23,810 bases of DNA from a virus. The stretch spans positions 1 through 23,810 of the IMG/VR virus record IMGVR_UViG_3300032516_001137, one strand, 5' to 3'. The notes under the pieces were generated by a model. It was not told the origin of the DNA. It searched no databases and saw only the letters and a program-made list of their open reading frames with translations. A program made the position numbers and the translations under genes. This document shows positions 5,551 to 20,499 of the stretch, one piece after another. The stretch's first letter is position 1. Every line of letters starts with the position of its first letter.

Positions 5551-5564
5551 TGATTACGTAATCA
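5551..5564. promoter_or_regulatory. Junction palindrome TGATTACGTAATCA, copy 1
   Basis: This is an exact copy, extended to an 18-bp perfect palindrome (5549-5566). The minus-strand TGA at its edge is the stop codon of the glycosyltransferase gene, and the start of the 42-residue gene lies 27 bases further on. Candidate operator or junction element. Confidence 0.7.
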
Positions 5565-7013
5565 AGCTTGTTTCTTACTGGGATACTGATACTCATGCTT
5601 CATGCCATCAAGTGTCTTATTAATAAGTGGTAAATGGTCTAGATATCTTTTCTTTTCCCCTCTAGGCTCATGGCCTATTGATGGTGCGTAATCACAGTTA
5701 GCATTTACGGCTGCATCACAAGCCATAAAAACTATATCTGAACATCCCCAGCATTTCGCTACTAGGACAGCTGTCTCAATGGACAGCGGGAATCGCTTAT
5801 CCTTAACAGCTAATTCAGAGTGAATAACTGTTAATACTTTCGGATGGTCATGATACCATTTGCAGTAGAAGGGCAGAATCATAGTCCCATACTTACTATA
5901 ACAAGTCTCACCAAGTATCGTGTCTTGCTGGACACAGTATAATGGATTAGCTATAGCACCATGTTTCTCGACACTATGAATAGCCTCGTTCAAGGCTATA
6001 ACTGGGCAGTCAGGCTTGAACAAATCTCCCTTATCAAATGGTATCTTATCGAGAGTTGGCCCCTTCGCAACAATATAACAAGTCTTATCCTTATACATAT
6101 CTTTCTGGGTTTTAACAAATTCTGAATCACCCATTGATACACGATGCAGAATCCATTTATTCTTTTCAACTGGCTTACATAGTCTATTAAGAATAGTTTC
6201 AGCTTGCTTATTCTGCCTAATCAAGATGATACCACCATCAGCAGTTCTCTTGATACCCTTCATTTTGAGGACAGCAGTAATATCCTTACCTGCTTGGGTC
6301 TTTTGATACATAGGTAATCGCAGCATATCAATATATAACTGTGCATCATCACCTAAGAGTTCTCTCAGTTTCTGGAACTCTACATCCTGTACTGGTAGGA
6401 ACGAGTGTCCACAACCGAATCCCCTCCTACCGGGTAGACCTTTCAATCCAATTAACATCTTCTTTTCAGCGAATTCTAGGTACTTCTTGCCGGCGGCATT
6501 GCGCCAAAATAGGATATCAATACCTGTACTATTACCCTTACCAGTAAGTTCACAAGCCTGTTTTAATTTCTCAATATTTATGGAAGTAAAACCTGTTTGA
6601 CAAAGAGAAGCATGATTCCTATTGTGCATATGACGATAGGTCTGGTTCTGAATATTATAATAAATTGCTTCACCCTGACCAACTATATGATTATGTGCTA
6701 ACCAATTATTCATTTGTTCGATATAATTGGCTGCATAATAGTCATCATCTTCAATGACCATTATGTGATTATATTTAATAAGAGGCAGGGCTACAAGTAA
6801 GTTGAGATGTAGAGTGTGCGGAGGTTCACCCGCCAATCTTTCTCTTTTCTTGTAGTCCTGCCCGAGTGTACAACGTGTGTCTCTTGTGATTCCGTCATCA
6901 ATAACTATCCATTGGTTAGGCTTAACAGTCTGCCTACCCATCCACATCTCACAAAACATAAATGTTTCGTATCTGTCACCTGTCGGGGTGATTAGCGTAA
7001 TACCGTTCTGCAT
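5562..7013 (-). CDS. Two-domain glycosyltransferase (GT-A plus DUF115-like domain)
   Basis: This encodes 483 residues from the ATG at 7013 (AAAGG 8 bases upstream); a TTG at 7031 is the longer alternative. The N-terminal domain has GT-A features: ITLITPTGDR, IDDG (38-41) and the acidic EDDD (88-91), which probably binds the metal and nucleotide sugar. Residues 309-345 (DKTCYIVAKGPTLDKIPF ... VIALNEAIHSVE) match the glycine-rich opening of DUF115/MAF-like and sialyltransferase-like sugar-transfer domains, followed by MACDA and a conserved-looking His/Asp-rich tail. The protein may modify virion or host surface glycans. Its start overlaps the patatin gene by 38 bases. The domain assignment of the second half is less certain. 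Confidence 0.7.
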   Translation of the reverse strand: MQNGITLITPTGDRYETFMFCEMWMGRQTVKPNQWIVIDDGITRDTRCTLGQDYKKRERLAGEPPHTLHLNLLVALPLIKYNHIMVIEDDDYYAANYIEQMNNWLAHNHIVGQGEAIYYNIQNQTYRHMHNRNHASLCQTGFTSINIEKLKQACELTGKGNSTGIDILFWRNAAGKKYLEFAEKKMLIGLKGLPGRRGFGCGHSFLPVQDVEFQKLRELLGDDAQLYIDMLRLPMYQKTQAGKDITAVLKMKGIKRTADGGIILIRQNKQAETILNRLCKPVEKNKWILHRVSMGDSEFVKTQKDMYKDKTCYIVAKGPTLDKIPFDKGDLFKPDCPVIALNEAIHSVEKHGAIANPLYCVQQDTILGETCYSKYGTMILPFYCKWYHDHPKVLTVIHSELAVKDKRFPLSIETAVLVAKCWGCSDIVFMACDAAVNANCDYAPSIGHEPRGEKKRYLDHLPLINKTLDGMKHEYQYPSKKQA

Positions 7014-7887
7014 AGTCGTAACCTTTCTCAATATTCTCCGCGTTTGTTTTGGGATTGAACTCCAGTAGTCCTAGTATGTATGGTATCTCGATAGTTGTAA
7101 AACTCTTATCATCACCGACAATTGCTTCTCCGAGCTTGATACTTAACTGTTCACATTGGTAACGAGCAATCCAAAAACAATGCGAAAGAGCTTCAATAGC
7201 TGACAATGAACCCCCTTTTTCCATAGGTTTGTAAGCACCGAGTCTTATAATTGTGTACTTGACATCTTTCCATGCGGGGTCGATAACGGAATAGTATTTG
7301 GCATACTTAACAGCATTCGCTACTGGACTATTACAAGCTACCCCACCATCATATAATCTATTATTATCAAATGGGTCAGCAATCGCTGCGAAGACACCGG
7401 GGATGTTAGTTGTGATTGCACAAGCATCGTCAACACGATACCCATCGCGCAAACTCTTAACTGAATTGACAGCATCAATATCAGTAGCAAATACTTCAGT
7501 ATAGACTTTCAAATCACTCATTACTAAATCTTTAGCAAAAAGATTATGTGTGACCTTCTTGATGTTAGAACGGAAATACCCACCTTTCATCCAACCAAAT
7601 AGGAGAGGATACTTAATCAAATCCCATTTGGATAATGTAGACATATCAGTTACAAGTTTCTCAATACTTCTTAACCATAAGAGTCTTTCGTTATTACTGA
7701 GTCCACCTTTTTCATTCTTTATATTGGTATAATTAGAAGCAAGACACAAACATACTGCTCCACCAATACTTGTTCCAAACATTGCATCAAACTGTATTTC
7801 CTTTACCTTAACAAGATATTCTACTACACCAGTAGCATACAATCCTTCAGCCCCACCACCTTCTATTATTAATACTTGTTTTGACAT
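6976..7887 (-). CDS. Patatin-like phospholipase
   Basis: This 303-residue protein shows the full patatin catalytic set: the oxyanion-hole loop GGGAEG (10-15, with Glu where Arg or Lys is usual), the nucleophile elbow G38-T-S40-I-G42, and the dyad aspartate in D180-G-G. Such enzymes cleave acyl chains from membrane phospholipids. The ATG at 7887 was preferred because GGTGG precedes it by 5 bases; an upstream ATG at 7899 overlaps the lipoprotein stop but has no site. There is no signal peptide. Its neighbours are a lipoprotein and two small proteins after the tail genes, so a role in host membrane damage at lysis, or in defence interference, is possible but unproven. Confidence 0.85.
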   Translation of the reverse strand: MSKQVLIIEGGGAEGLYATGVVEYLVKVKEIQFDAMFGTSIGGAVCLCLASNYTNIKNEKGGLSNNERLLWLRSIEKLVTDMSTLSKWDLIKYPLLFGWMKGGYFRSNIKKVTHNLFAKDLVMSDLKVYTEVFATDIDAVNSVKSLRDGYRVDDACAITTNIPGVFAAIADPFDNNRLYDGGVACNSPVANAVKYAKYYSVIDPAWKDVKYTIIRLGAYKPMEKGGSLSAIEALSHCFWIARYQCEQLSIKLGEAIVGDDKSFTTIEIPYILGLLEFNPKTNAENIEKGYDYAERYYANHPDR

Positions 7888-7898
7888 AGAGCCACCCA

Positions 7899-8351
7899 TT
7901 ATTTAACTGGAACATTTGTTATCGGAACATTTGTCACAGGAACATTTGTTATCGGAATGATTTCAATCTTAGTGGGAGTAAGCGGAGTAGCTGTTTCCTT
8001 GATATCAATAATAAAAGGAATCTTAATAATAGATTGGGGTTCCTTCTCAAGCTTTAATATGGCATCCTGGCCCATTGGATAAATAATTATTTCTTCACAG
8101 AAAAGTGGATGTCCTGAAAGTAATTCATAGGTTACAGCAGTAACCTTAGCACCCTGTCCACGAGCCATCGGAAAAATAGTTAGAGAACCATAGCCCATGC
8201 CTAGTTCAATCTTACCGGGAGTATTAGCATCCATAGGGCTAGCCTTAACCCAGCCACCAGTCCACTCTGTACGGAATCCATTGAGATTTGTGCTAGAGCA
8301 ACCAACTAACAACATTGATAACGTAATCAAACCAATGATTGATGCCTTCAT
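7899..8351 (-). CDS. Phage lipoprotein with NVP repeats
   Basis: This encodes 150 residues. A lipoprotein signal peptide (MKASIIGLITLSMLLVGC) ends in the lipobox L15-V-G-C18, followed by Ser-Ser, which in Gram-negative bacteria favours transport to the outer membrane. The mature part is beta-type and ends with the repeated ITNVPVTNVPITNVPVK, encoded by 15-bp DNA repeats. GGAGA lies about 7 bases before the start. The start overlaps the stop of the Cys-rich gene and the stop overlaps a possible patatin start. It could be a superinfection or lysis protein; it does not look like a standard o-spanin in length. Confidence 0.75.
   Translation of the reverse strand: MKASIIGLITLSMLLVGCSSTNLNGFRTEWTGGWVKASPMDANTPGKIELGMGYGSLTIFPMARGQGAKVTAVTYELLSGHPLFCEEIIIYPMGQDAILKLEKEPQSIIKIPFIIDIKETATPLTPTKIEIIPITNVPVTNVPITNVPVK
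7909..7953. repeat. Three 15-bp tandem repeats in the lipoprotein gene
   Basis: GGAACATTTGTTATC, GGAACATTTGTCACA and GGAACATTTGTTATC follow each other without a gap and encode the five-residue units (I/V)TNVP at the C-terminus. Copy number could vary by slippage. Confidence 0.9.
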
Positions 8352-8638
8352 ATTTCATTCTCCGTACAAGGGTCACACTTTATATGATTCGTTACGAAGC
8401 TTGTCTTATCGCAGAAGTATACATACTTCTTAGCACCACAAGGCGTAGGAACATTTCTGAAAGAACGGAACTTACATTGCTTATAGATACGATGATGTAC
8501 CCAAGAGTCTTTCTCGTCAGGTTCATATCCTTTCTGTGGCATTGGAGGTTTGTGTCCCTTATGAGGATAAATAATATCCCCATTGAACATGAGTCTTCCG
8601 CCATTTGGTATACGTTGGTTAATTGGTTGTTGCTCCAT
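8348..8638 (-). CDS. Cys-rich hypothetical protein, 96 aa
   Basis: AGGAG lies 5 bases before the ATG at 8638. The N-terminal half is Pro- and Gly-rich (IPNGGRLMFNGDIIYPHKGHK). The C-terminal half carries five cysteines (QCKF, PCGAKKYVYFC, KCDPC) that may bind a zinc ion. Its stop overlaps the lipoprotein start as ATGA, tying the two translationally. No function is known to me. A second minus frame (8392-8604) is a shadow of this gene. Confidence 0.65.
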   Translation of the reverse strand: MEQQPINQRIPNGGRLMFNGDIIYPHKGHKPPMPQKGYEPDEKDSWVHHRIYKQCKFRSFRNVPTPCGAKKYVYFCDKTSFVTNHIKCDPCTENEI

Positions 8639-8646
8639 AGTACTCC

Positions 8647-8745
8647 TTATCCGTGTCCATCAGTACTAAATAAAGTCATTGCTAATATAATAGCAATCAA
8701 TATTACTGCTGAACAAATCATCAGACATAGAAAAATTGTATTCAT
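8647..8745 (-). CDS. Tiny membrane peptide, 32 aa
   Basis: An AAAAGGA site precedes an ATG at 8745 that opens a 32-codon frame: MNT, a single hydrophobic segment (IFLCLMICSAVILIAIILAM) and a short polar end (STDGHG) before TAA at 8647. It fits exactly between the Kelch protein gene and the Cys-rich gene. A membrane peptide next to a lipoprotein and a patatin fits a lysis-associated role, but length and composition alone do not prove it. Confidence 0.6.
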   Translation of the reverse strand: MNTIFLCLMICSAVILIAIILAMTLFSTDGHG

Positions 8746-8759
8746 ATTGTTTCCTTTTA

Positions 8760-9764
8760 TCAGCCTCCCAATCCTCTTGATGTAGCAAATGGTGCAAAAG
8801 TAAAATATGTCCAAGTATCAGTACTAGGTACATATTTATAAATGTCACTATGATTATAATAAATCCAACCATCAAAAGAATATCCAAACATGCATATAAA
8901 ACTTCCATCTGCTTGAGGGGATGTCTTAGCTTCTAACCAATATGTATCATCAGTTGAACCTCCAGGCACTCTTCTAGATAAAGTAGTCCAAGCATTTGCT
9001 GTAACATTATATTTATACCATCCAGTATTATAAAAATAAGCACTACCAGTTCCATCACCTACAAAGAAGTTCTCTCCAATCATCGTTCCAGTATTAGATA
9101 TACCAATATTAGGACAGTCTGGAAGATTGCTCCAAGTATTTGTCATAATGTCATAGACATAAGCTTTCTTACAAGTTCCAGTTATAGGTGGAGAAGCAGC
9201 ATTACCTAATGCTGAGTATATCTTTCCATTGTATGCTCCGCATACTGGCCCTCTGATTTTTAAGGGGTAATCAGCTATTGCTGACCATGCATTAGTTGTA
9301 ATATCATATACGTAACATCTCTCAAGATTCTGAGCAGTTACTCTACTATTGCCACCAATGATATAAATTTTATTATTATGTGCAGCGATACCACTAAAAC
9401 TATATGAATCACCTATGAAATCAGCAAGTCTAGTCCATACTTTAGAAATAATATCATACTCAAACCATTTAACACTTGCATTAGCAGTTCCACCTCCTGG
9501 CCCTCTAGTACCCATTCCAGAATATAATTTATTACCAAATCTTATACTCATGGGTACAACTATATCACCATCTGGGTATGCTGTTTCTGTAGTCCAAGTA
9601 CCGTTGGAATATTTATGAAAAAGCGTATACCAGTTAATTGTATGAGTATAATACCAACCTTTACCATATAAGAACTCAGCCCCTGCATCAAGTTCTAAAA
9701 CACCAAGAGGTGATCTATATAGGCTACCCATTGGTGTTCTAGCTCTTGCACCAGTATATGACAT
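8760..9764 (-). CDS. Kelch-repeat tail tip protein
   Basis: This encodes 334 residues. A short N-terminal part (SYTGARARTPMGSLYRSPLG) is followed by five to six Kelch-type blades with the typical pattern of paired Gly and a later Tyr/Trp: KLYSGMGTRG ... WFEYDIISKVWTRL, KIYIIGGNSR ... CYVYDITTNAWSAI, KIYSALGNAA ... AYVYDIMTNTWSNL and WYKYNVTANAWTTL. These fold as a beta-propeller, a common carbohydrate- or protein-binding scaffold. As the last of the tail genes it is a good candidate for receptor binding. Copy 2 of the junction palindrome lies 10 bases before its ATG; only a weak AAAGA site is visible. Confidence 0.8.
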   Translation of the reverse strand: MSYTGARARTPMGSLYRSPLGVLELDAGAEFLYGKGWYYTHTINWYTLFHKYSNGTWTTETAYPDGDIVVPMSIRFGNKLYSGMGTRGPGGGTANASVKWFEYDIISKVWTRLADFIGDSYSFSGIAAHNNKIYIIGGNSRVTAQNLERCYVYDITTNAWSAIADYPLKIRGPVCGAYNGKIYSALGNAASPPITGTCKKAYVYDIMTNTWSNLPDCPNIGISNTGTMIGENFFVGDGTGSAYFYNTGWYKYNVTANAWTTLSRRVPGGSTDDTYWLEAKTSPQADGSFICMFGYSFDGWIYYNHSDIYKYVPSTDTWTYFTFAPFATSRGLGG

Positions 9765-9774
9765 ATAATCTTTC

Positions 9775-9788
9775 TGATTACGTAATCA
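9775..9788. promoter_or_regulatory. Junction palindrome TGATTACGTAATCA, copy 2
   Basis: Exact copy. The minus-strand TGA at its edge is the stop codon of the 961-residue tail gene, as in copy 1; the Kelch gene starts 10 bases further on. Confidence 0.7.
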
Positions 9789-12671
9789 AGGACTGGGAGG
9801 TGCGTACTTACTATCATGAGCAAATGCTCTACTATCTGTATTAATATCCATCCAAACACATTTCCCATATTCCTTTGATGTCAAACCAGTTCCATTAAGT
9901 TGATATTGAACAGTAATTATAGTCCCAGGTTCCTTACTAGTTTCAGCAACATACTTTGGAGTAATTATTTGATATTCATCCGATTCACCACTTTTTACAG
10001 CCTTACGTACTTGTAACGTGTTCCATTGAATAGCTGAATAATCTATACCGCCAATAGTTTTTCCATTCCAAGTCATTTGTCTTAATGCAATCGGCATTGA
10101 AGCATACAGGAAACCATTTATATCAACAATCTTATTCTTAATAACAAATTCTTTAACTATTGTACTAAATCCAGAACTATCTACTAATCTACAATATAAA
10201 GTATTTGTATTAATTTTAACTATCATTGCATTGAAAAGAGTAAACATAAGAGTATCAAGAATCTCAGATTCTGTTAATGTTTGGTCGGCTAATGTAGCAT
10301 TTTCTTTACGATGTCTACCATGTTTTAATATGGACGGTAAAACACGTTTCATTGGACGTTTCTTCGTGATTGCATAAGCAAGTGTTCCTAAGCCAGCAGC
10401 AGGGTCGCCAGGATGTACATCCAAACTATCATCAAGATAGGCTTCACCTACTCCATGCTTCAGAGGTAGCCAAACACTCAATACTATTTGATGAGTGACA
10501 CTATCATGTCCTACCCCACGTACCTCACCCAATACTGGTGTGCCACCATTTATGAAAGGCACGTTGATTCGTATTGCATCCCATACCTGAACATTTAGAC
10601 TATATAGGAAAGTATTAATTTCAAGTGTATACCAACAATTACTCTTTCTATTCATCCAGAAATCATGACTCTTCTGTACTAATGATTTGAAATTATATAT
10701 AACACTATTTATCTCGAAATCATGTTCACCATATATATCAACATTATTTTCACTTTTAATTTTACTTTTTTCCGTTTCTTCGTAAGTAAAATTCCAGAAA
10801 GAAGTAAATTTAGTAAAGATATCATCTGAAGATGTCTTGGATATATCCATACTTTTGAAACGAATATTTGCTGCTAATGCCTCAAAGACATAACTAGTTG
10901 GTGCTTTAGAGAGATACTTTAGAAATATTTCTCCGGCATCTATGAATACACCAAGTCTAGCTAACCATGCAACTTCTTGTATTGCTTCAAGTGCATCACG
11001 CTGAGTCAGGAACGCAAAATGACTTGGATAATTTGTAATTAAAATACCTACTGCTGTAAAGTTTCCAGCATTAGGAATAAGAGATGTACGATTAAGAGCT
11101 ATCCAATTGATTACATCAGTAGCAGTATTACTATTAATAGATGAACGTAATGACATATAAATATTATTATCATCCCATCCATTTTGTGTAATATCTTTTG
11201 TTAAGTATAAAGTAGTCAATGTTTCCATATTTCCATTAACATTCAATACGTGAGCTAATGTTACTACATAATCATCCTCAGGTAATAAATACAGCACACC
11301 TTCGTTCTTACAACATACCTCAATACATTCTGTACTGGCGACACTATTGAAAACATATAAATCAGGTGGCGCATTATGTATTTTAACTGTTGTTCCAGGC
11401 CCAATATCCCAACGTAATGGTGAACTATCTGAGGGAAGCATTACCCATTGATATGGAATCTGTCCTCTAGCTTCAGCAATAGTTGCATGTTCACCATTCT
11501 CATCATCAGTAGCCCCACCAAGCAATACATCACGACCGAAAGCATCCTTACAAGCACGACTAAAATATATCTTATTATTAATAGTATCTACTTCTGTAAT
11601 CTGAGCAACAAAACTTTCCATGCTAATTTTTTTACCAACATCAATTTTGCTATTATCTTCTGCATCATCAAGAGTAGTATACTGGTCACTATTAATTAGT
11701 TCATGACAAGTAGAACCATCATCACGAATGAACTCAATATAATAATAATGTGACATATAACGGATATGAACAAACTTTCCTTTGAGGTCAAAGAATCCTA
11801 CACCATTTACCCATGCACATGAAGCATTATTATAATCTGAATCATCTACATTACGACCTTGAATGGTAATATTATTACGCCAAGGAGCGTTGAATTGTAA
11901 TACTGACGAACAATTAAATGTTTTACCATCTCCCTGAAATGTTCCACCAAATAGACATCCACCTATTTCAAGTACCATTGATTGATTAGCATAAGCCTCG
12001 AAACCACTTACTTGGAATCTAGTTGTATCATAAGTAAGTTTGAAACTAGTTGGGTCATCAGGTACGCGATACCAAGTTGTCCATGAATATATTTGTGTGA
12101 GTAATTTACCAGTAGGCCCACGACTTACCCGTACACCCGGCAAGCGCAGAACTGTTCCAAAACAAAGTGGAAATACTGTACCAATCTCTTCCTCACTTGG
12201 AAAATCAACACTTGTTTCTTTTATTTCAAGTAAGACATCTTTGCTATCCCAATCATTATTAACCTCAAATGCAAGAGTTCTATCACCCTCACTCCATGTT
12301 ATAGGACTCATTATCTTGCCAACTAGTATAGGAGTAATATCTGATTGTGTTAATCCCTCAAACCAATGATAAATAGTTACAGGACGCTTCTCAATTATCT
12401 CAGAATCAAATACAGTTTTGAGGTCGCCATCTATATCACAAAGAGTAAGATTCGCACTATCTACTCCACCATATGTCCTATCATTTATTTTTGAACTAAC
12501 GGTTCCGAAATCTGTTATTCTACCTTCTATATTCAAAGTGCCAAGAGTAAAACTCTTGTCACCATAATACTTAGTTCCACTTACCCAATCAATCTTAACA
12601 ATAACAATAGGCTCAGAGCCAAGTCTACGAGTAGACTGAGCAATCGTACCAGCAGTCAATGTTCTAGCCAT
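9786..12671 (-). CDS. Tail hub/tip protein, 961 aa
   Basis: The N-terminal region (SEPIVIVKIDW ... YGDKSFTLGTLNIEGRITDFG, then YGGVDSANLTLCDIDGDL) is of the type found in distal tail or hub proteins of long-tailed phages, with repeated beta-strand modules. The middle and C-terminal parts carry no recognisable enzyme motif; the end (PMKRVLPSILKHGRHRKENATL) includes a short basic linker before a last beta domain. GAAGG precedes the ATG. It follows the 121-residue distal tail protein and precedes the Kelch tip protein, the normal place for the tail hub. No lysozyme or peptidase motif was seen. Confidence 0.7.
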   Translation of the reverse strand: MARTLTAGTIAQSTRRLGSEPIVIVKIDWVSGTKYYGDKSFTLGTLNIEGRITDFGTVSSKINDRTYGGVDSANLTLCDIDGDLKTVFDSEIIEKRPVTIYHWFEGLTQSDITPILVGKIMSPITWSEGDRTLAFEVNNDWDSKDVLLEIKETSVDFPSEEEIGTVFPLCFGTVLRLPGVRVSRGPTGKLLTQIYSWTTWYRVPDDPTSFKLTYDTTRFQVSGFEAYANQSMVLEIGGCLFGGTFQGDGKTFNCSSVLQFNAPWRNNITIQGRNVDDSDYNNASCAWVNGVGFFDLKGKFVHIRYMSHYYYIEFIRDDGSTCHELINSDQYTTLDDAEDNSKIDVGKKISMESFVAQITEVDTINNKIYFSRACKDAFGRDVLLGGATDDENGEHATIAEARGQIPYQWVMLPSDSSPLRWDIGPGTTVKIHNAPPDLYVFNSVASTECIEVCCKNEGVLYLLPEDDYVVTLAHVLNVNGNMETLTTLYLTKDITQNGWDDNNIYMSLRSSINSNTATDVINWIALNRTSLIPNAGNFTAVGILITNYPSHFAFLTQRDALEAIQEVAWLARLGVFIDAGEIFLKYLSKAPTSYVFEALAANIRFKSMDISKTSSDDIFTKFTSFWNFTYEETEKSKIKSENNVDIYGEHDFEINSVIYNFKSLVQKSHDFWMNRKSNCWYTLEINTFLYSLNVQVWDAIRINVPFINGGTPVLGEVRGVGHDSVTHQIVLSVWLPLKHGVGEAYLDDSLDVHPGDPAAGLGTLAYAITKKRPMKRVLPSILKHGRHRKENATLADQTLTESEILDTLMFTLFNAMIVKINTNTLYCRLVDSSGFSTIVKEFVIKNKIVDINGFLYASMPIALRQMTWNGKTIGGIDYSAIQWNTLQVRKAVKSGESDEYQIITPKYVAETSKEPGTIITVQYQLNGTGLTSKEYGKCVWMDINTDSRAFAHDSKYAPPSP

Positions 12672-14919: not shown

Positions 14920-14951
14920 CCCTGACTAGGTGATTTCTCACCTAGTCAGGG
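14920..14951 (-). terminator. Strong 14-bp hairpin after the 168-residue structural gene
   Basis: CCCTGACTAGGTGA and its exact complement are separated by four bases that read GAAA (a GNRA tetraloop) on the minus strand. It lies about 13 bases after the stop of the 168-residue gene and 21 bases before the next start. No T-run follows, so it may stabilise or process the mRNA rather than end transcription fully. Confidence 0.6.
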
Positions 14952-15528: not shown

Positions 15529-18500
15529 TTATCTCTTATTTAACATTACCTGTCCATATGGAGTCTGTAATACTCCTGGTGTCACTTCGTATTCTCCACT
15601 TCTCCAAGGATTTGTATTATTAGGTTCTGTCATAATATTATTTTGTCCTCTCTTAGAACCTTTTTCAATACTTTCAACAACTTTACCAGTTATTTCTTTC
15701 CCATCAACATATATGGTGATTCGATTATTTATTTGAGGGGCAGGTCTAGTAGGAGCTAATGTTCTTGATGGGTCGATAGTCTTTCTACTAAATTGGTCTT
15801 GCCAACTAGGTATTGACACGTGTTCAGGTAGAGTACCAATAAATGCTGGTAATTGTTGAGTAGGACTTATTTTACGTTCTGCACCCTTCCACAATTTTCT
15901 TGTCCAATCTTGACTTGTCTGACCAATTGTGTTTCCACCCAATCCAAGTTCAAATGTCTTAAAGATATCATCCTTACGTAATCCACCTAGACCGGGAAGT
16001 CCCTTCTTTATTTCAGTAGTCTTAGTTTCCTTATCAAAGAACTTATTCATTACATCAGTATTTTTAGTCGTAGATTCAGAATTCTTATTCTGAGCATTTG
16101 TTAAAGTCTGAGCTACTGTCTTTAATTCTTCTTTATTTTGCTGTTCTGCAGCCCTACTTTTTTCTAATTGTTGACGTAATTCTTCTAATCTTTTCATTAA
16201 AGCAGGGTCACGACCTTCCGTACTTACAGTTCCAGTCGTATCTTCTTGATTCTCTAACTGCATTTGGTCTCGTATAGCTTCTGAAGTAGCAACAAGTTCT
16301 TCAAGTTCATCAACAAGTTTTGCTTGTATCTTACGTTCAGCCTCAATTTTATCAACTATTACTTTCAAACCGGGTACAGGTTCAGATATTTTTGATGTAT
16401 AAATAACTGATAAAATACCTAATAACTTATTTAATGAGGCTTGTTCTCCAGCAGGTCTAGCTAATGGTTTGCCTGTAGCCACTATAGAAGCTAAATTATC
16501 AATTTTACTTATTACTCTTTCATCCCACTTAACAGTTTCACTTATCTTATCTATTAATATTTTTTGTTGTTCTCTAGATAATGATGCAAAAGTATTAATA
16601 TATCCACCTAAAATATCATTAAGGGGTCCAACTGCTGATGCTTCACCAAATACATTAGTTCCTAATCTTTCTGTATTTAATCCAGAAGCAATGTCACCTA
16701 AAAATTTACCAAATTCATTTGGCTTAATAGCAACTTGTAATCTACCAATTTCATTTAATAGAGCAGTCAATTCTTCTTTTGAAGATTTCTGTTTTTCGAC
16801 TCGCTCCTTTTCTAAATCTGTAAATTTCTTTTGCTCTTCTAGCAATGCGTCTAAACGTTTTGTGCTTTCAGCTGCCTGCTTATCTAATATAGCTAATTCA
16901 TTTTGCTTATTAATTAATGTAGCAATCTCTGCTAACTTAGAAGTTGCAGCAGCTTTAAATTGGTCTACACTTTTAATACTACCAGTTGATATATTTTCAA
17001 TTTTACTTGTTAGTAGGCCAATACGTTCAGTCTCTTCTACACCACCAATTATAGCTTGTATTTTAGCAGATATCTCAGGAGAACTTGTCTTAGCAATCTC
17101 TTTATATAAATCATTAATAACTGATTTGTATACATCCATTTGCTTACTAAAATCTTTTTCAGTAAATTTTATTCCCTTTAATTCATCATATAAAGCTTTA
17201 ATAATTTCTAAGCGAGCTTTTTCTTGTTTCTCAAGTGCTTGCGCTTGTTCTAAGCGTTTCCTATTATTAGCTTGTATAACTAATTCAGCTTGCTTATATG
17301 ATTCTATAAGCAAAAGACGCCGTTTAAGTATTTCATTGTAACTGAATCCGAACTCACGCAATCTTTCAGTTAATCCTAATATCTTTTCAAATGACTCCCT
17401 AGCCGTATCTAAATTATCAGTTTTAATGGCTTCTTGGAATCCCCCAGCTATTAATTGAACATATTGCTTATAAATTTCAAATTGCCGAGCAAAAGTCTGC
17501 ATTTCTGTAGGCTTTTGACCGGGTTCAGGCTGGACAAATTTGCCTTTTTGTTCTAATGTAGCTTGATAATCTAATAATCTTACCCTAGCTTTTTCCCATG
17601 CCTCATCTACTTTACCTATATTCTGAACAAGTGTATCATAGAAAGATTCATTAATTTTACCGGTATTAATTTTGTCCACTATCTTTTCAGATTCTTTTAA
17701 TCTACTAACAATTGCCTTAATAGCCTCTCCAATTACTCTAACTCTATTTTCAAGCATACCAATAATTGATTCAACAAATGAACCTAAAGCATCCTGACCT
17801 TCTTTTATGCCCTTTGTTAATTCTTCTATTTCAGGAGTTAACATAGTTTTCCGTCTAGCTGTTAATTGTAAAAATTGTTGATTAACTTTTTGTAATCCTC
17901 CAGAAACTTTTTCAGCATCCTCATTAATTTTTTCTATTGATTTTGCATACGCTAAATTTACTTCAGTACCATCTTTAATATTTTTTTCTAATTCACTAGC
18001 CGCTGAACTAGTTTCAAGCCATTTTCTGATTCCATGAGTTAGCATAGCTATAGCAGTAGCAATTAAAGCAGTAATACCCAATACTTTAACCATTGAAGTA
18101 GCTCTGAACGAAGCTAACTGAGCTAATTCTTGTTTCTGTTGAGCTAATCTAGCAAAATGTTCAGAAGCTTCCAAATGCCCTAATTGAAGCATTTCTATTT
18201 CTTTTTCACGAATCTTAGCAATTTCAATATCCATTAACCCTAATTTAACTTTAAGTAAAGTTATAATTACACCCTGTTCAGTAGAAGTCATAGCTAAAGC
18301 TATTCTATATCCTGCATATATGGCAACCAATGCTTTAAGTGCATCAATAAATAACTTAGTAAGTGTTAATAATGAACGAGTATTACCGGTAATTTTTGCA
18401 GCACCGTTAATAACAATTTGTACAACTTCTAAGAATGACCTTCCAATCCCCGCAATAAAATAATTACGTACTTGATTAGCTTGTATCTGTAATTGTTTAC

Positions 18501-20499
18501 CTAAGCTTTCTACTGCTATCTGTGTTGCCTTAGAATAATATTGTATTGCCCCATTGAAATCTTTAAGAGTCTGATTGAATGCTTCTGCTTTATTACCAGT
18601 CAAACCAAGTATACCATTGATAGCACGTATTGAATTAAAGAAATCATTCATTTGCTCCGTACCCTTACCAATTCCCTCAGCTTCCAAACGTAAAAATTCT
18701 TCATTTAATTTATTAATTACTCCAATAAATCCAAATGTTTTAATAGCCATCTGACCAGTATCAACACCCCATGTCTTAAATATGGCAGTCATTTCTTCAG
18801 TAGGGGAGATAAGTTTTAAGAAAATGTTGCGTAACTCAGTCATTACAACTGCTGGTTTCTTGCCTTGAATGGTTAATTGAGCAATACCAGCAGCTAAATC
18901 TTTAAGTGGAACCCCTAATTGAGCAGCTATAACAGCTACTCTACCAAATGAATCTGCTACTTCATCAGCACGTACACGACCTAATTCAATCATCTTAAAT
19001 AGTATAGCAGATACCTCTGTACTATTTACAGCACTTAGACCATAAGCATTTAGAGCACTTGATAATAGATTAACTGAATTCTCTGTAGAAGTAACTGATG
19101 CGCGAGCAAATTCCATTGCATTACGCATGAATATGAAAGCATCAGCACCTTTAGCAATCTGGTTAGAGATTGCTTGATATGTACCTTCAATTGTATCCTC
19201 AAGTGTAGAACCGAATTCATCAGATAATCTCTTTGCTCCCTCGAACCATTGCTCAAATGGTAGTTGCACATCTTGTGATATTGTACGTATTTCACTAATA
19301 CGCTTTTCAATATCAGCAGTAGCCCTGATACCATCACGTATTTGCCTAATCAGAGCATAGATGGCACGATGTACAGTTTGTGCTACAGCAAATCGTAACC
19401 AGAACTTCCATGCCGCGTTCATTCGTGAAGCCATTTGCTCGCTACCATGAGCAGCAATTAAGGTGGCTTTGTTATATTCAAGTAAAGCCTGATTAGTCTT
19501 CTTCATCGGGTCAATAGGAACTGTGAAAGCTTGCTTTAACGTACTACCAATATTCTGAATAGCTTTACCATATCCAGTACCAATTCTTAATTGACCAGTT
19601 ACAGCATCAAGATTAAGAGATTTCAAAGCAGTCATGCCAGCTTTAATAGAAGCTGGGCTAAATGCCATTACATAATTTTTACCTAATGTTACTAATGACC
19701 TACTTAGATAATTATTATTGGCAATTTCTTCTAGACGAGATGCTTTACGTTGAGTAGCTGCTAATAAATCCTGTGCATATACTCGAAGGAGTTGACCACG
19801 TGATGCTATTTCTGTTTTGATTACAGAAGCAATACGACTTCTTAAAGAAGCTTGTTTTGCTATGGCTCTAGTAGCCTCATCTGTAAGCATAACATATTTA
19901 CGAAGCCGTAATAAATCCTTATCTGAGGTCTTATATGCAGCTAATTCAAGTGCGGAATAATTAGGAGGGGGAGCAAATTGAGGAGCGAGAGGTTGTCTTT
20001 GTGGCCCCTGCATTACACCAGTAGATTTAGTATAATCACCTTTTAATAGCCCAAGTTGAGCACCAGTAAATATTGAACCTAACCCTTTACCTCTTTCAGA
20101 TAGAGTAGCTAATGCTCTATCTTGAGCAGCTGAAACTTTATCTAATCCTAAAGCAGTATTATTGGCGGTAGTCTGCAATGTCCGTAAAGCTTTATCCTTT
20201 GCAGCCACCGCCGATACAAAATTTGTTTTTGCACCAGCAAATCCACTAGCTTTTGCTTCTAATTCTCCAAGTGCTTTTGAAGCATTGGCACTAGTCTTAT
20301 ACCAATTATCAAGTTCTTCTTGTACTTGTTTAAGACCAGTTGAAGTTACTTTAATATTAACAGCTGGATTCTGTGTATTATTAATAGCCTGTAAAGTGGC
20401 TGCAAAATTAGCACCACTTTGTGCTGCTTTGTCAAAATCAAGAGATAATTGTTCTACTGATTTTGAAGCTGGCGAGGTATCAATTTCAATTCTTTTCAT
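15529..20499 (-). CDS. Tail tape measure protein
   Basis: At 1656 residues this is the longest gene here and spans the tail tube, whose length it sets; at about 1.5 angstroms per residue this predicts a tail near 250 nm. The region from about residue 385 (RATADIEKRISEIRTISQDV ... QAISNQIAKGADAF ... LLSSALNAYGLSA ... VADSFGRVAVIAAQLGVPLKDLAAG) is the conserved core of TP901-type tape measure proteins. Two hydrophobic stretches lie at about 708-735 and 803-830 and may cross the host membrane during DNA entry. Long coiled-coil stretches follow. TAGGAG precedes the ATG and overlaps the stop of the preceding gene. The large open frames on the opposite strand are shadows. Confidence 0.95.
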   Translation of the reverse strand: MKRIEIDTSPASKSVEQLSLDFDKAAQSGANFAATLQAINNTQNPAVNIKVTSTGLKQVQEELDNWYKTSANASKALGELEAKASGFAGAKTNFVSAVAAKDKALRTLQTTANNTALGLDKVSAAQDRALATLSERGKGLGSIFTGAQLGLLKGDYTKSTGVMQGPQRQPLAPQFAPPPNYSALELAAYKTSDKDLLRLRKYVMLTDEATRAIAKQASLRSRIASVIKTEIASRGQLLRVYAQDLLAATQRKASRLEEIANNNYLSRSLVTLGKNYVMAFSPASIKAGMTALKSLNLDAVTGQLRIGTGYGKAIQNIGSTLKQAFTVPIDPMKKTNQALLEYNKATLIAAHGSEQMASRMNAAWKFWLRFAVAQTVHRAIYALIRQIRDGIRATADIEKRISEIRTISQDVQLPFEQWFEGAKRLSDEFGSTLEDTIEGTYQAISNQIAKGADAFIFMRNAMEFARASVTSTENSVNLLSSALNAYGLSAVNSTEVSAILFKMIELGRVRADEVADSFGRVAVIAAQLGVPLKDLAAGIAQLTIQGKKPAVVMTELRNIFLKLISPTEEMTAIFKTWGVDTGQMAIKTFGFIGVINKLNEEFLRLEAEGIGKGTEQMNDFFNSIRAINGILGLTGNKAEAFNQTLKDFNGAIQYYSKATQIAVESLGKQLQIQANQVRNYFIAGIGRSFLEVVQIVINGAAKITGNTRSLLTLTKLFIDALKALVAIYAGYRIALAMTSTEQGVIITLLKVKLGLMDIEIAKIREKEIEMLQLGHLEASEHFARLAQQKQELAQLASFRATSMVKVLGITALIATAIAMLTHGIRKWLETSSAASELEKNIKDGTEVNLAYAKSIEKINEDAEKVSGGLQKVNQQFLQLTARRKTMLTPEIEELTKGIKEGQDALGSFVESIIGMLENRVRVIGEAIKAIVSRLKESEKIVDKINTGKINESFYDTLVQNIGKVDEAWEKARVRLLDYQATLEQKGKFVQPEPGQKPTEMQTFARQFEIYKQYVQLIAGGFQEAIKTDNLDTARESFEKILGLTERLREFGFSYNEILKRRLLLIESYKQAELVIQANNRKRLEQAQALEKQEKARLEIIKALYDELKGIKFTEKDFSKQMDVYKSVINDLYKEIAKTSSPEISAKIQAIIGGVEETERIGLLTSKIENISTGSIKSVDQFKAAATSKLAEIATLINKQNELAILDKQAAESTKRLDALLEEQKKFTDLEKERVEKQKSSKEELTALLNEIGRLQVAIKPNEFGKFLGDIASGLNTERLGTNVFGEASAVGPLNDILGGYINTFASLSREQQKILIDKISETVKWDERVISKIDNLASIVATGKPLARPAGEQASLNKLLGILSVIYTSKISEPVPGLKVIVDKIEAERKIQAKLVDELEELVATSEAIRDQMQLENQEDTTGTVSTEGRDPALMKRLEELRQQLEKSRAAEQQNKEELKTVAQTLTNAQNKNSESTTKNTDVMNKFFDKETKTTEIKKGLPGLGGLRKDDIFKTFELGLGGNTIGQTSQDWTRKLWKGAERKISPTQQLPAFIGTLPEHVSIPSWQDQFSRKTIDPSRTLAPTRPAPQINNRITIYVDGKEITGKVVESIEKGSKRGQNNIMTEPNNTNPWRSGEYEVTPGVLQTPYGQVMLNKR

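Follow-up and report, generated by a model that had tools for sequence, protein, structure and literature searches.

The DNA under study, referred to below as the window, is the whole of IMG/VR record IMGVR_UViG_3300032516_001137 (23,810 bp) and represents part of a tailed-phage genome. Its minus strand carries a tail module comprising a tape measure, tail-tip proteins, the 961-residue tail-tip protein p961 and a Kelch-repeat protein, and downstream of these follow the genes for a 32-residue membrane peptide (TM32), a Cys-rich protein, a lipoprotein and a patatin-like phospholipase (hereafter the patatin), with which this analysis is concerned. A first-pass annotation had described these four genes as one coupled unit. 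All four open reading frames (ORFs) are real and were found on the minus strand where they had been placed (Table 1). They are tightly packed in the order kelch, TM32, Cys-rich, lipoprotein, patatin, the last being followed by a gene for a glycosyltransferase/MptE-like (GT/MptE-like) protein. An AAGGAA motif lies upstream of the ATG of TM32, which occupies an otherwise empty gap of 121 nt, and the TM32 stop codon touches the AAGGAG of the Cys-rich gene. Several of the genes overlap, as had been noted: the Cys-rich and lipoprotein genes by 4 nt, the patatin and GT/MptE-like genes (ATG of the latter at 7013) by 38 nt, and the lipoprotein and patatin genes by 1 nt, the last on condition that 7899 is the patatin start. 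The alternative start at 7887 is preceded by a G-rich site that is better than the one for 7899. Intergenic DNA makes up only about 3% of the window, so that the tight packing by itself is not special. Judged from its layout, the assignment of the four genes to a single late transcription unit within a tail module of the siphophage type is well supported. The coupling holds at the level of the operon, which extends further, into the 484-residue GT/MptE-like gene.

The patatin matched Pfam PF01734 with 62.8 bits (cut-off 27.7; E = 6.3e-17) over profile positions 1-190 of 191. Its catalytic dyad is intact, in agreement with the first-pass annotation, Ser40 being located in GTSIG and Asp180 in DGG. 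The oxyanion loop reads GGGAEG, in which the glycines are kept and a Glu takes the Arg/Lys position of GGGx[RK]G; most patatins have an Arg or a Lys at this position. From these motifs the protein is likely, but not certain, to be catalytically active. It has neither a signal peptide nor a fusion to a tail domain. A tblastn search at the usual limits against 50,697 phage and 72,556 plasmid records returned no relative of the patatin, and with loose limits the best full-domain matches in genuine phages were the patatins of Wolbachia phage WO, at E about 0.03. When IMG/VR was scanned with single queries (patatin, lipoprotein or p961) or with patatin motif patterns, no relatives of the patatin or of the lipoprotein were obtained. 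A weak match labelled as phage (MT837297.1) was set aside, being located among bacterial genes, and the four stretches retrieved from bacterial genomes with the motif GGGAEGLY..GV turned out by tblastn not to be patatins.

The lipoprotein has a lipobox LVGC with a Ser at +2 and ends in TNVPV/I repeats, the 3' end of its gene containing 15-bp short tandem repeats (7906-7957). No match to it was found in IMG/VR, phages, Pfam, PHROGs or the PDB, and a single-sequence structure prediction was unusable, with a predicted local distance difference test score (pLDDT) of 38. For TM32, no family match was obtained in Pfam or PHROGs and no relatives were found.

The gene neighbourhood was compared with that of related tail modules. 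Nineteen loci were obtained by alignment of p961 with L035, the first relative, which had been brought in by chance through a patatin-motif scan, and 80 further loci are the best 80 of 308 from an alignment of a 182-residue tail protein (p182), giving 99 in total. In these loci tblastn detected p961 in 77 and the tape measure in 79, and tail proteins in most; homologues of the patatin, the lipoprotein, TM32 and the kelch protein were detected in none of the 99. PF01734 was likewise absent from all 69 whole records that were searched (the 19 and a further 50, some of more than 100 kb). The Cys-rich protein behaved differently. An alignment of 19 sequences revealed four invariant Cys residues, and the profile derived from it matched 31 of the 99 loci, some of which are near-identical, so that the independent cases are fewer than 31. 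The family is thus spread in the phage clade, and it occurs there without any patatin; its predicted structure (pLDDT 81) had no fold match in the PDB or BFVD. The idea that the four genes travel together was not borne out by this comparison of gene order, nor was support found for a four-gene functional unit. The picture that the window suggests when read by itself, that of a conserved cassette, is thereby corrected.

The closest relatives, L121, L127 and L150, also possess an MptE-like gene, which is homologous to the C-terminal half of the GT/MptE-like protein of the window. In L121 the Cys-rich gene directly precedes it, within 3 bp, and in L150, for which the fuller record L173 was used, the Cys-rich gene is found immediately before it as well. 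L127 has at this place a 141-residue ORF with the same Cys spacing, recognized by eye and below the profile threshold. The ORF of the Cys-rich domain in L121 continues into a glycosyltransferase-like stretch, an assignment that no family model confirmed. As the Cys-rich and MptE-like genes adjoin in the closest relatives, the lipoprotein and the patatin of the window stand between neighbouring backbone genes. On the gene orders available, the simplest reading is that the pair has been placed between them.

In some of the relatives, genes of envelope type were noticed downstream of p961. L121 encodes there (L121:16479-17463) a 140-residue protein with transmembrane and coil segments and a 100-residue lipoprotein, the latter unrelated to that of the window; as a holin the 140-residue protein gave weak matches only (best holin-family E = 0.02). 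In L124 an SPFH/Band_7 gene (L124:18491-19039; Pfam E = 1e-19) lies just downstream of the p961 homologue, and look-alikes, judged by sequence appearance only, are present in L139, L143, L145, L053 and L058. A variable slot for membrane-acting genes downstream of p961 would fit these arrangements.

No ORF scanned in the window matched an endolysin, holin or spanin family, as the first-pass annotation had also observed. Because the record is a fragment, this lack tells little. The search in relatives covered eight common hydrolase families in records of uncertain completeness: PF05838, PF13539, PF01510, PF00959 and PF01464 were absent from 18 relative records, and PF08291, PF01551 and PF00877 from 20 larger ones. 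In Pfam scans of the ORFs of three records, the 25 families listed (of 29 and of 31) included no cell-wall hydrolase. Acidovorax phage AP1 and MW202615, found solely through p182, were left aside in judging which lysis genes the clade has. As no common endolysin family turned up in the relatives searched, a non-standard mode of lysis is conceivable; for unusual lysis in this clade, these results are a lead and do not amount to proof. As to a spanin pair, the window does encode a lipoprotein, but no candidate inner-membrane spanin with a periplasmic coil, TM32 being too short, and none of its proteins matched a spanin in PHROGs.

We suggest that p961, the Cys-rich protein and the MptE-like gene constitute a backbone common to the relatives, into which the lipoprotein-patatin pair, and probably also TM32, would have been inserted as accessory genes. 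The patatin would be a cytosolic phospholipase, made late, that cleaves inner-membrane phospholipids, and the weakened host membrane could then aid the release of virions. The lipoprotein, co-translated with it, would be directed to the outer membrane, where it may either help in rupture, like spanin-type lipoproteins, or block re-adsorption, like phage exclusion lipoproteins. The Cys-rich protein would most likely partner the GT/MptE-like protein and not the lipase. That the patatin acts on the host membrane and the lipoprotein at the outer membrane is our inference. This release-related reading, an accessory lipoprotein-patatin module of which the patatin weakens the host membrane late in infection, is given a probability of roughly 0.4, and is thus put forward tentatively. 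The two proteins are probably a membrane-attacking add-on and not a conserved four-gene lysis machine; membrane action at release, as raised in the first-pass annotation for the whole set, is possible but unproven. In its favour, the patatin genes of phage WO and of phage LR756508.1 have neighbours of the lysis type.

Several observations weigh against this explanation. For a holin, TM32 is small, with its one hydrophobic stretch in 32 residues, and the lipoprotein is unlike the known spanins. Lacking conservation in the clade, the patatin cannot be the essential lysis enzyme there, and with Glu in place of Arg/Lys in its oxyanion loop its activity is not certain. The patatin gene of Rhodothermus phage RM378 is separated from a DNA polymerase gene by a single hypothetical gene and is not part of a lysis cassette. 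Besides, the direction of the change may have been the opposite, the lipoprotein and patatin having possibly been lost in L121, L127 and L150.

The position of the lipoprotein gene, just downstream of tail genes, is also that of the exclusion lipoproteins of some phages (T5 Llp). The lipoprotein could mask or block a receptor and the patatin could alter host lipids or counter rival phages or defence, neither having a role in lysis. The placement of the RM378 patatin away from lysis genes agrees with this. So does the score of the window patatin on phospholipase-effector models of the cyclic-oligonucleotide-based anti-phage signalling system (CBASS; PADLOC 2e-12, NCBIfam 1e-9), although at 38 bits it is far below the NCBIfam equivalog cut-off of 200, and its identification as the CBASS effector CapV was rejected. 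However, no cyclase (CD-NTase) gene was present among the window ORFs scanned, the window holds no sensor partner, and the lipoprotein has no sequence similarity to any known exclusion lipoprotein. Superinfection exclusion or anti-defence is regarded as rather unlikely.

A patatin of the cytosolic type, with no partner conserved alongside it, might instead recycle or remodel phospholipids during infection, for instance by freeing fatty acids, and have no direct part in lysis or exclusion. Phage patatins are scattered and found in differing neighbourhoods, as would be expected of such a lipid-metabolism gene. The tight coupling to the lipoprotein gene and the position in a late operon suggest, however, a role at the envelope; they are not decisive, and this explanation is considered distinctly unlikely. 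Improbable as well is the bolder proposal that lipoprotein and patatin are a two-layer envelope-rupture pair, replacing or acting beside a holin-spanin system in a clade without recognisable endolysins. Finally, the genes follow the kelch and tail-tip genes in one operon, a position from which late expression is expected, but a patatin or lipoprotein carried in the virion, the lipase riding with the tail tip and aiding genome entry through the membrane, has a poor chance of being correct, given a patatin with no export signal or tail-domain fusion, a lipoprotein signal that directs to the host envelope, and a presence in 0 of 99 loci where a virion component would be expected in more.

Some further features of the window and its relatives were recorded. 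The Kelch-repeat protein is, by its position, likely a tail or receptor-binding component. The plus strand encodes a deoxynucleotide kinase, an exonuclease, a glycosyltransferase and two tRNAs. The only perfect 14-bp palindrome of the window, TGATTACGTAATCA, occurs in 23 copies at up to three mismatches, compared with 2.4 expected. Five of its eight best copies (Table 1) are in intergenic DNA; at up to two mismatches it is absent from 19 relative loci. It looks like a binding site for a regulator. A perfect 14-bp stem with a GAAA loop and no T run is present at 14920-14951, between two late genes, and 15-bp short tandem repeats are found at the left end (79-125). Among the relatives, a prepilin-like AFTLVEVLVVIAIIGMLIALL stretch lies close to the start of an ORF in L045 (L045:14684-15712). 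Stretches of this kind are common in Planctomycetota, which is a possible hint at the host of L045. A p182 homologue with 38% identity is encoded by Methanosarcina virus MetMV (MK170447.1), a virus of an archaeon.

Table 1. Positions of the genes and palindrome copies in the window, with the basis of each assignment.
Feature	Position	Strand	Basis or remark
Tape measure	15529-20499	minus	
p961, 961-residue tail-tip protein	9786..12671	minus	Homologues in 77/99 relative loci; anchor for finding relatives
Kelch-repeat protein	8760..9764	minus	Matches Pfam Kelch (E about 1e-16) and a virion structural protein in PHROGs; opens the operon
TM32, 32 residues, one hydrophobic (single-transmembrane) stretch	8647..8745	minus	Sequence and upstream site
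Cys-rich protein, 96 residues, 5 Cys, Cys4 zinc-ribbon-like pattern	8348..8638	minus	Clade family alignment
Lipoprotein, 150 residues, signal peptide	7899..8351	minus	Sequence
Patatin-like phospholipase, 303 residues (307 from alternative start 7899)	6976..7887	minus	PF01734 profile, phage-patatin alignment, motifs
Glycosyltransferase-like domain fused to MptE-like (DUF115-type) domain, 484 residues	5562..7013	minus	Weak Pfam matches to GT2 and MptE-like
TGATTACGTAATCA, exact	824		
TGATTACGTAATCA, exact	5551..5564		Downstream end of the operon; covers end of the GT/MptE-like stop codon
TGATTACGTAATCA, exact	9775..9788		Just upstream of the operon
TGATTACGTAATCA, exact	12690		
TGATTACGTAATCA, one mismatch	4854		
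TGATTACGTAATCA, one mismatch	8316..8329		Inside signal-peptide codons of the lipoprotein
TGATTACGTAATCA, one mismatch	15495		
TGATTACGTAATCA, one mismatch	21970		

The first-pass annotation had called a phage patatin beside a lipoprotein uncommon; phage patatins are indeed uncommon, but they are not unprecedented. The uncultured phage LR756508.1, of 484 kb, has a patatin gene that shares 1 bp with a gene for a GH108 lysozyme (PF05838, E = 5e-21; L062:3420-4939). As in the window, the patatin, which is 24% identical over the full alignment, belongs to a tightly coupled gene pair; its partner there is a lysozyme, whereas the window has none. The protein NP_835609.1 of RM378 (L083:5980-6945), annotated as hypothetical, matched PF01734 with E = 2e-27 and thus is, like that of the window, a patatin of a tailed phage; it differs in neighbouring a DNA polymerase gene. 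With CapV the window patatin shares the superfamily and the GGG...GTS-G motifs, and the profile matches are weak. A parallel in setting is offered by phage WO, for which phospholipases have already been proposed as lysis factors, with no test found in the literature searched. The patatin that ends its tail module was proposed to serve in exit or entry, and a putative patatin-based 'lytic cassette' near the tail genes was described; the available text of these papers reports no experimental test of the proposal (PMC3173496; PMC9203015). In WO as in the window, the patatin is encoded next to tail genes and has a similar length, a small membrane protein is encoded close by, and canonical lysis genes were not recognised. 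WO, however, has ankyrin-repeat and holin-like proteins, to which no match was found in the window (Pfam, PHROGs), and no lipoprotein was seen in its annotated region. The two patatins are about 27% identical over 206 residues, and no other common gene was seen. With the window, a patatin that lies at the tail end of a late operon is seen in a second and unrelated setting, and this one, in a clade where no common cell-wall hydrolases were found, represents a concrete, testable case for lipase-assisted release.

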